Shown here: one piece after another, positions 26,911-29,324 of the stretch
Layout of the letters: every line of letters begins with the position of its first letter
Position numbering within the stretch: position 1 is the stretch's first letter
NCBI RefSeq assembly: GCF_030323025.1
Contig: NZ_CP097329.1
Coordinates: forward strand, 2,486,501 to 2,550,500
Source: Pseudanabaena mucicola str. Chao 1806
GTDB lineage: Bacteria; Cyanobacteriota; Cyanobacteriia; Pseudanabaenales; Pseudanabaenaceae
Reading direction: 5' to 3'
DNA length: 64,000 nt
Program-made: the position numbers and the translations under genes
The notes under the pieces: model-generated
Told to the model about the DNA's origin: nothing
Databases searched by the model: none
The model's input: only the letters and a program-made list of their open reading frames with translations

Positions 26911-28134
26911 TCAGAACTTAAATGGATTATAAATCACGCATGGGGTAAAGGCGTTTTCTAATAATTTGAAAGTAACTGGATTTAGCTTGGTAATCCATTG
27001 TTTATGAACGAGTTCAGAGATAGTATAAGTGCCATAAATCAAAGCAGATATACCTGTGATCGTTGCCCTAAAGTCGATCGCTATGTTTTGCACATCACTG
27101 TTATAGCGTTTGACTGCGAGGCTACCGCGATCGCTATCTACTCGAAAAATACTCTCATTCCAACTGCATTGAGGATCGCTAATGGCAAAGTTAAATGGCT
27201 CACAGGTGATCGGCAAACCGTTCAAAGCCTCAACAATATCTACAATCCTGATCATCCAAGGCTCTGTTATTGATGATTGTAACTTCCCTGCATTGTTGAG
27301 CCATGAATGTACATTTGCATTTAGCGGGACTGGCATTTTCAGGCTATGGATTTGATCGCGATGGCTAGCAAAAAATGCGAATAGGCGATCACGTGATGTT
27401 AAATCTGTCCAAAATATCGATGAAATTTCGATCTGGCGATCGCTCATGGATAAATTGCCACTGCTATCAATTCCATAAATCGCTAGGGCGACAGGTTGAT
27501 GCTCGCGCTTTAATACCACACAGAGCTTTTGGCGATGCAAATGCCACCATTGGTCATAGGTGAAATTGGTAATTGCTAAGCCGTGACTATGGGGCTTTAT
27601 TGTGTGCGAGCGCAGATTTTCGTAGAGAAAATTAGACAAAATATCTCTGACTTCAGTAGCGGGAAAGCGATCGCATGACCAATTATTTTGATTTGGCAGT
27701 TTTAAGTAATTGCTCAAGGACGCAATCGGAATCGTGATTTCATTAGTGGAGTTGGCGATTGCATAGCCCAGCGATTCATAAAAACTCTCTTTAAAGGGCG
27801 TAAGCATACTCACACAAATACCTTGCATTCGCATTTCTAAAAAGACACTTTTCATTAATGCTTTCACACAGCCACGATTGCGGTATTCAGGGTATGTCCA
27901 AACGCCACCGATGCCCCCCATTGACTTAATCACACCTCGAACTGACTGCTGAAAATGGAAACATTGCAGCGCCGCCACAATTTTGCCATCGATTTCGGCT
28001 GCCAATACATCATCAGGATTGATTGCGTTTAGGTGCGATCTCGGTAAATCCTGATTAGTCCATCGCGAATAGGCATACAAATCTCCCTTGAGTATTTCAA
28101 TACGTTCATTCTTATCAATCTTGCGAATTTTCAT
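26911..28134 (-). CDS. Eis-like GNAT acetyltransferase
   Basis: 407 residues from the ATG at 28134. An N-terminal GNAT domain (about 1-140) carries the acetyl-CoA loop in VWTYPEYRNRGCVKALMKSVF and ESFYESLGYAIANST. It is followed by a second, diverged GNAT-like region and a C-terminal domain resembling a sterol-carrier fold, the three-part plan of the Eis family. Family members acetylate amines such as aminoglycosides in some bacteria; the substrate here is unknown. The frame is open from a TTG two codons earlier that overlaps the xisI stop. Starting at the ATG leaves a gap of 2 bp, so translational coupling to xisI is likely. Confidence 0.82.
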   Translation of the reverse strand: MKIRKIDKNERIEILKGDLYAYSRWTNQDLPRSHLNAINPDDVLAAEIDGKIVAALQCFHFQQSVRGVIKSMGGIGGVWTYPEYRNRGCVKALMKSVFLEMRMQGICVSMLTPFKESFYESLGYAIANSTNEITIPIASLSNYLKLPNQNNWSCDRFPATEVRDILSNFLYENLRSHTIKPHSHGLAITNFTYDQWWHLHRQKLCVVLKREHQPVALAIYGIDSSGNLSMSDRQIEISSIFWTDLTSRDRLFAFFASHRDQIHSLKMPVPLNANVHSWLNNAGKLQSSITEPWMIRIVDIVEALNGLPITCEPFNFAISDPQCSWNESIFRVDSDRGSLAVKRYNSDVQNIAIDFRATITGISALIYGTYTISELVHKQWITKLNPVTFKLLENAFTPCVIYNPFKF

Positions 28135-28136
28135 GA

Positions 28137-28472
28137 TCAACTTACGGCATACTCCGTAAATTTACGCATGAAAGTAGAATAAAAACCGATGACAATATCT
28201 TGCTTTAGTACGCCTTGATTCACTAATTCTTCAGCAAAATCGATTTCCGTACCGTTGTATTGCAACCAGATTTTACCTTGTTTAATATCGAAGTGCAGGA
28301 TGCAACCATAAATACGATGATCGTTCTCCCAGCTAACATTAATAATTTGGTAATGATCATGCTCTACATCAAAAACTAGTTCGCGATCGACACCATTTCT
28401 TCTATAGTCATCATGGGCATATTCTTTGATTAATCGTTTCACAATTTCTCGGTATAGGTTTAATTTATCCAT
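28137..28472 (-). CDS. xisI: XisI-family protein
   Basis: 111 residues, the usual size. The family signatures DKLNLYREIVKRLI at the start, then VFDVEHDHYQIINVSWENDHRIYGCILHFDIKQGKIWLQYNGTE in the core and GVLKQDIVIGFYSTFMRKFTEYAV at the end are all present. XisI was named as a controlling factor for excision of the fdxN DNA element in heterocystous Anabaena, but XisH/XisI pairs are spread widely through cyanobacteria that have no such element, where their role is unknown. Its usual partner xisH lies directly upstream and is broken here. The reading frame of xisI itself is intact. Confidence 0.88.
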   Translation of the reverse strand: MDKLNLYREIVKRLIKEYAHDDYRRNGVDRELVFDVEHDHYQIINVSWENDHRIYGCILHFDIKQGKIWLQYNGTEIDFAEELVNQGVLKQDIVIGFYSTFMRKFTEYAVS

Positions 28473-28887
28473 TGAGATATCTCCTCTCTGTTTGGGTTGT
28501 AAATAATCAATTTTATGTTTTGGGTTTTAATAATTATTTGGATTAATTCCAGTATAAAAAATGTTTCATAAATAGTGTTGGAAAAAGCTAAATACATTAT
28601 GCGATCTGGCTCTTTTTGACTCAGGGCTGTGCGATAGTTAATAAATTGCCCTAGTGGTTTGTGAAATTCAGAAATTGCTGAGCCACTAATAAATCTCTTA
28701 ACTTCAACTGCAATTTTTTTCTCCTTTTCTTTCTGCGGTAATTAATTTTTCTGCCCCTAAATCAATATATATCAATATATATTTCAACTCCACCAAAGTC
28801 TAAATACATGGGATCATGAGTAATTTTTCATCCTTCTTTCTCTAATCCAATTTTGAGCGTATTATGAAAAATATCTTTGGCTGGTAT
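28460..28887 (-). pseudogene. xisH: Decayed xisH
   Basis: Minus-strand pieces in three frames spell the XisH protein from PAKDIFHNTLK through GAEKLITAERKGE and IAVEVKRFISGSAIS to the C terminus NREEISQWIN. Four lesions are seen. The start codon is ATA in place of ATG at 28885-28887. A TGA interrupts the EKEG-KITHDP segment. A 10-bp tandem duplication (ATATATTGAT twice) shifts the frame within VEIYID. A run of seven A bases shifts it again before IAVEVK. The last codons overlap the start of xisI by 13 bp, as in intact xisH-xisI pairs. XisH has a restriction-nuclease-like core in the family. Confidence 0.85.
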
Positions 28888-29017
28888 ATAGCTAGAGAAA
28901 CAATAATTTTTTTGGAAATGGCTAGAGGTTTTCTCGCAGTTTAACGACTAATACTGAAGTATTTGTGATTTCATCCTGTGAACGGGGTATTGTTTTAGCT
29001 CTGTGATCGCAACTTGG

Positions 29018-29023
29018 TACAAT
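29018..29023 (+). promoter_or_regulatory. Putative -10 element of the psbEFLJ operon
   Basis: TACAAT lies 55 bp upstream of the psbE ATG in an A/T-rich leader. No strong -35 hexamer is seen. The leader to the gene contains AGAGGACTG as the ribosome-binding site. Confidence 0.4.
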
Positions 29024-29078
29024 AGTAAATTATTATTTAAAATAAAGATTTTAGACATTACACATTTAGAGGACTGTT

Positions 29079-29324
29079 ATGGCAGGTACTACTGGAGAGC
29101 GCCCATTTTCCGACATTATTACCAGCGTTCGTTATTGGCTAATCCATAGCCTTACCATTCCTGCACTGTTTTTAGCAGGCTGGTTGTTTGTAAGCACAGG
29201 TCTGGCATATGACGTATTTGGCACACCCCGCCCTAACGAGTACTACTCTCAAGAACGTCAAACTGCTCCAATTGTGAACGAGCGTTACAATGTTGACGCT
29301 GAGATTTCCGCAACTGGGAAATAA
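29079..29324 (+). CDS. psbE: Cytochrome b559 alpha subunit
   Basis: 81 residues, the standard length. PsbE and PsbF each give one His ligand to the haem of cytochrome b559 in the photosystem II core. The haem ligand is H23 in [19 protein letters not shown], within the single transmembrane helix. The conserved [10 protein letters not shown] and the C-terminal [10 protein letters not shown] segment follow. It is the first gene of the psbE-psbF-psbL-psbJ cluster. The rubredoxin (rubA) and ycf48 genes that often precede this operon in cyanobacteria are not here; xisI and the xisH remnant lie upstream on the other strand. Confidence 0.98.

Follow-up and report, generated by a model that had tools for sequence, protein, structure and literature searches.

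The xisH/xisI locus described here lies in a 64,000-nucleotide stretch of the Pseudanabaena mucicola str. Chao 1806 genome (hereafter the window) and is the remnant of a known gene pair. We consider it probable that the nuclease gene of this pair died recently and that XisI is antidote-like towards a costly XisH. Behind this reading stands a one-way decay of the two genes that is strong across 28 genomes from 14 genera. The recurrence of this one-sided loss in the further cyanobacterial genomes examined suggests that XisI might serve as an antidote to XisH, a proposal drawn from sequence comparisons. The available parts of earlier papers present the two proteins either as helpers of excision or as an endonuclease with a directionality factor (PMC4853749, PMC4874684, PMC2674450). 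Searches of the open-licence literature for XisH toxicity data or for a toxin-antitoxin account of XisH/XisI found none.

In the window, xisI (positions 28137..28472, minus strand) is an open frame of 111 residues that matches the whole PF08869 profile (1-110 of 110, 144 bits), and its product has both the full profile and the fold of the XisI family. The xisH pseudogene (28460..28887, minus strand) belongs to PF08814, whose intact relatives have a PD-(D/E)XK nuclease fold. Its pieces match positions 2-79 and 43-133 of the profile and are collinear with intact orthologues, as befits a homologous pseudogene. Four lesions were found, all on the minus strand: ATA in place of the start codon (28885..28887), an in-frame TGA at codon 20 (28828..28830), which replaces a conserved Trp in the alignment with orthologues, a 10-bp tandem duplication (28763..28782) and an expanded run of A (28714..28720) just before the (D/E)XK motif. 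In the duplication, the 10-mer at 28782-28773 is copied at 28772-28763 and covers the region that encodes the conserved active-site Asp. There are 7 A in the run, compared with 5 or 6 in five intact orthologues. With its ATA start, its TGA and two frame-changing lesions before D..ExK is completed, the window xisH fails as a working protein.

The end of xisH and the beginning of xisI share 13 nt, in the window as in the orthologous locus of a relative (G002), and the two genes are thus adjacent, small and overlapping in the manner of type II toxin-antitoxin genes. An AGGAG, Shine-Dalgarno-like for xisI, sits within the 3' end of xisH (28481..28485, minus strand), 9 nt before the xisI ATG, so that xisI would be translatable without xisH. 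Downstream, a gap of 2 bp separates the xisI stop from the ATG (at 28134) of an acetyltransferase gene (26914..28134, minus strand). The latter matches Acetyltransf_9, Acetyltransf_17 and SCP2_2, a combination of GNAT and SCP2-like domains that we take to be an Eis-like make-up. On the far side of the site lies the divergent gene psbE (29079..29324, plus strand), identified from the Pfam match of its relatives. A promoter search returned 6 predictions, with 9.9 expected from shuffling, and inspection of the window copy revealed no excision element. A preliminary description of this DNA had listed the four xisH lesions, the whole xisI and the acetyltransferase 2 bp away, all of which we found as described.

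The window xisH is a real pseudogene. In a second genome of the same species (G024, locus L133), the ATA codon, the TGA and the duplication are identical to those of the window, and the A-run is 8 long. The lesions thus did not vanish in an independent assembly, and a sequencing or assembly error, which the homopolymer nature of one lesion might have suggested, has a negligible probability and is ruled out because three lesions recur exactly in that genome and the fourth site is abnormal there as well. Comparison with related strains, as the preliminary description had proposed, uncovered intact xisHI pairs between psbE and the acetyltransferase gene in four genomes (G002, G032, G027 and G006), with an xisH of 138 residues. 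In a fifth (G031), an intact pair precedes the acetyltransferase gene, on a contig that stops short of psbE. In four others (G008, G009, G005 and G010) the psbE/acetyltransferase site is empty and about 80 bp long; the acetyltransferase gene, present there without xisHI, is therefore an old neighbour. Because both intact and empty sites occur in relatives, we conclude that the pair was gained at this site and that xisH died later. The gap between psbE and the acetyltransferase gene (28135-29078 in the window) is variable, since it contains an xisHI pair, a broken pair, nothing, filler or an ORF depending on the genome (L034, L038, L039, L041-L044). The filler is a 480-bp non-coding segment in G004, and the site of G012 harbours a Uma2-like ORF, named by reading of its sequence.

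The window genome, a single contig of 4.53 Mb, encodes 12 full xisI and one fragment. Four of the full copies are beside an intact xisH, and the other eight have a broken xisH, only a stub of it, or none at all. The check for further xisH genes thus yielded four intact pairs elsewhere in the genome, and the earlier suggestion that the window xisI uses another xisH is possible in that sense. Comparison of the two P. mucicola genomes at loci about 98-99% alike revealed three xisH losses that only the window genome has. One is due to an IS66 insertion, one to a nonsense codon and one to a deletion, and xisI is intact in both genomes in all three cases. This amounts to a natural experiment, in which three xisH genes of one species survive in G024 but have died in the window genome. 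The IS66 insertion is a 489-aa ORF, an IS66-type transposase by its look, inside an xisH of the window genome other than the window copy (L169:1250-2719); that xisH is intact in G024.

We then counted intact and broken genes in 13 of the 26 Pseudanabaena genomes, those with complete lists, with a preference for assemblies of few contigs. The first classification of the 138 loci gave 75 apparent intact pairs, 25 broken xisH with intact xisI, 23 intact xisI without xisH, 10 broken xisI without xisH, 2 loci with both genes broken and 3 with a piece of xisH alone, and no intact xisH with a broken or absent xisI. Inspection of the xisH start codons, performed for these 13 genomes only, showed that 2 of the 75 apparent pairs lack a start codon and are frameshifted at the xisH start, leaving 73 pairs. 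All 73 intact xisH genes are therefore beside an intact xisI, and 50 of the 123 intact xisI lack an intact xisH (30 with an xisH remnant, 20 without). The preliminary statement that the two genes normally occur as a pair thus needs correction for this genus. Broken xisH with intact xisI was observed at 27 loci and the reverse at none. Broken xisI genes are found at 0 of the 73 loci with intact xisH and at 12 of 62 loci without one (Fisher p 5e-5, for loci that are not fully independent). Four apparent exceptions (L123, L151, L011 and L144) were discarded, as each is frameshifted near the XisH N-terminus.

A second count covered 15 genomes, complete or nearly so, from 13 genera outside Pseudanabaena; they were chosen among the 40 genomes of the phylum with xisI by the same preference for few contigs and complete lists, and the intactness thresholds differed slightly from those of the first count. 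Its 125 loci comprise 67 intact pairs, 18 intact xisI with a broken xisH and 17 with none, 1 shortened xisI beside an intact xisH, 4 loci with both genes broken, 12 broken xisI alone and 6 pieces of xisH alone. Thus 67 of 68 intact xisH are accompanied by an intact xisI, and 36 of 103 intact xisI lack an intact xisH (Fisher p 8e-6, again for loci that are not fully independent). At L261, counted as one doubtful case, XisI stops about 7 residues before the end of its relatives, and at L262, one of the 4 loci classified as broken in both genes, the end of XisI is normal for its subfamily.

We also collected 80 loci from a wide sample of named genomes, picked by xisH likeness and therefore no measure of how frequently xisH breaks. 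Of these, 77 have an intact xisH, with an intact xisI beside 74 and a defective one beside 3: an early TGA in a metagenome-assembled genome (L334), an insertion carrying stops in Nostoc sp. CCCryo 231-06 (L343) and a truncation in a metagenome-assembled genome (L349). The short insertion that splits the Nostoc gene (L343:2880-3340) resembles an interspersed repeat. Exceptions to the expectation that an intact harmful gene is never kept without its antidote gene number 0 of 73 in Pseudanabaena, at most 1 of 68 in the other genera and 3 of 77 in the wider sample. Because of these three loci, the requirement for XisI is not absolute, unless another xisI acts in trans. Two xisI genes in tandem were found at G054:C1:2333267-2333933 and G135:C1:4159773-4160623.

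Structural comparisons give XisH a nuclease fold. The closest match of the XisH model is 2okf (Z 23.8), followed by PD-(D/E)XK nucleases such as EndoMS (Z 9.3) and PaqCI (Z 8.0), and the available part of an earlier survey lists XisH as a member of that superfamily (PMC1189080). The D..ExK motif is present in all 73 intact XisH of the genus, 68 by pattern and 5 by eye. The modelled XisH fold is thus one able to harm the cell, a statement about capacity, toxicity aside. The XisI model superimposes on 2nlv_A (Z 19.6, rmsd 1.8, 111 aligned residues). The fold search revealed no likeness of XisI to a known antitoxin fold, the best hit outside its own family being frataxin-like (Z 4.7), and no immunity protein above Z 2.7 outside that family, an absence that excludes nothing. 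A comparison of XisH and XisI with the PADLOC models gave 0 matching families at E values up to 1.

We examined the genetic environments by scanning neighbours with Pfam. Intact pairs, for which 140 of 144 neighbours were scanned, are mostly flanked by household genes, and neither toxin-antitoxin enrichment nor defence islands were found among those 140 neighbours, in which the commonest Pfam family is Uma2 (5 of 140). Near solo xisI, PemK_toxin accounts for 7 of 98 neighbours, including four near-identical loci. At eight loci (L082, L224, L184, L205, L229, L231, L183 and L127), xisI without xisH is directly behind PemK/MazF-like, PIN-like or DUF433/DUF5615-like genes, the latter two names being assigned by reading, as if the partner had been swapped. 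Two other loci (L097 and L154) encode an in-frame mini-xisH of about 63 codons, in which profile positions 1-35 are joined to 113-135; the catalytic core is gone and the overlap with xisI is retained. As for mobile replicons, xisI was found on 46 plasmid records and xisH on 38 (e.g. NZ_CP046705.1), and both are nearly absent from viral contigs, with xisI in 1 locus and xisH in 2.

We propose that an ancestor gained the xisHI pair between psbE and the acetyltransferase gene. XisH would be a small PD-(D/E)XK nuclease, costly when unrestrained, and XisI an antidote-like partner that would neutralise it. As long as xisH works, loss of xisI would be selected against; once xisH is broken, xisI would be free to linger and would later decay. 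A lingering xisI may be kept whole for a while by chance or by its own ribosome-binding site, or because it counters XisH encoded by plasmids or by the four other intact pairs. The nuclease gene falls first nearly always and broken xisI occur almost only where xisH is dead, a pattern that fits XisI guarding against XisH.

Alternatively, XisI might have a useful function of its own, with xisH dispensable and selection keeping xisI after the loss of its partner, a scenario that we regard as unlikely. It would account for the excess of xisI over xisH (241 versus 184 among the matches listed for the 26 genomes) and for the fact that some solo copies are behind other genes such as PemK/MazF-like toxins. 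It would also account for the equally low dN/dS of solo and paired xisI (medians of 0.08 and 0.09, respectively), which gives no sign of relaxed constraint in solo copies, although the xisH losses may be too recent for this test to have power. We compared dN/dS between xisH remnants and the xisI of the same pairs as well; the difference looked significant, but we set the p-values aside because, at deleted parts of xisH, many rows of the alignment paired sequences that are not homologous. Among rows with 130 or more aligned codons, the dN/dS of xisH is only 0.04-0.22, which indicates that the xisH breaks are young and that the remnant test is low in power. In a tree of the 123 intact xisI, whose few columns leave some joins unsure, there are 39 changes between paired and solo states, at least 25 of which are forced by well-supported branches. 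Solo xisI are scattered tips amid paired copies, and the deep solo-only clade that an independent function would lead one to expect is missing. Nor does such a function predict that broken xisI are almost wholly confined to loci with a dead xisH. Finally, the window xisI carries two private changes, Gly47 to Ser and Pro89 to Leu, in columns that are at least 90% conserved in relatives, whereas intact orthologues have 0 or 1 changes at near-invariant columns. The earlier idea that XisI acts without its partner thus retains the low dN/dS of solo copies in its favour, and the youth of the solo tips and the breakage of xisI where xisH is dead argue against it.

It is improbable that XisH and XisI assist site-specific recombination as an obligate complex, on the model of the fdxN element, and that the window locus is a dead helper. 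The available portions of PMC4853749 and PMC4874684 report the fdxN role and propose an XisF-XisH-XisI complex. The window genome encodes a large serine recombinase domain (PF07508) in a single frame of 490 aa, away from the window site. However, an obligate two-protein complex should decay symmetrically, with the first loss about proportional to gene length, and this does not agree with the 27-to-0 ratio in the 13 genomes. By hand count, 13 broken loci retain an almost full-length xisH that was hit by an insertion or a point-type lesion, and comparable lesions are not found in xisI beside an intact xisH (length-weighted chance 5e-4). Furthermore, genomes contain up to 24 xisI matches, which far exceeds the number of known excision elements. 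Still less probable is that the window xisI persists only to relay translation to the acetyltransferase gene: the 2-bp gap is in keeping with a relay, as is the fact that the xisHI insert took the place of the former intergenic leader, but it would explain a single site and the same pattern recurs at many unrelated ones.

The window copy is therefore best read as a leftover antidote-like gene, the best supported of the three options initially put forward, in line with the repeated loss of xisH, the persistence of xisI and the near absence of the reverse. The pair has the same families, gene order and folds as the XisH/XisI of the fdxN element (PF08814/PF08869; PDB 2okf, 2inb, 2nlv, 3d7q, 2nwv, 2nvm), but its xisH is dead and it lies at a site with no excision element in view. 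The role reported for the fdxN pair, in the portions of PMC4853749 and PMC4874684 available, is help with recombination rather than that of an antidote. In common with type II toxin-antitoxin and restriction-modification systems, xisHI consists of small overlapping genes with a nuclease-fold partner, occurs in many copies and is carried by plasmids. It differs from them in that no antitoxin or methyltransferase domain is recognised in XisI and that the nuclease gene comes first. As with solitary antitoxins and methyltransferases, the harmless half outlives the harmful one, harm and neutralisation being putative for XisH and XisI. According to the accessible part of a review, solitary restriction enzymes are rarer than solitary methyltransferases (PMC3874152). 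Uma2 (DUF820) is also nuclease-like, but it has no xisI-like partner and showed no relation to XisH in these searches. An excess of xisI is likewise apparent in Candidatus Thiomargarita nelsonii Bud S10, with four xisH and seven xisI (PMC4853749), where the available part of the paper gives counts without an analysis of breakage.

The window remnant is of value for the strong, replicated asymmetry to which it led, which makes XisHI function testable. One-way decay offers a testable answer, that XisI restrains XisH, to the question of their role outside the fdxN element, open since 1997, the date of the fdxN paper. If that answer is true, the nuclease-antidote systems would gain a very common and poorly named gene pair. 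More tentatively, XisH-XisI could represent a large unrecognised nuclease-antidote family, of addiction or defence type, in cyanobacteria and certain other filamentous bacteria, many of whose genomes would have 10 to 20 copies. Solo xisI would then be spent antidotes that may shield the cell against plasmid-borne XisH, and the fdxN role would be a later use.
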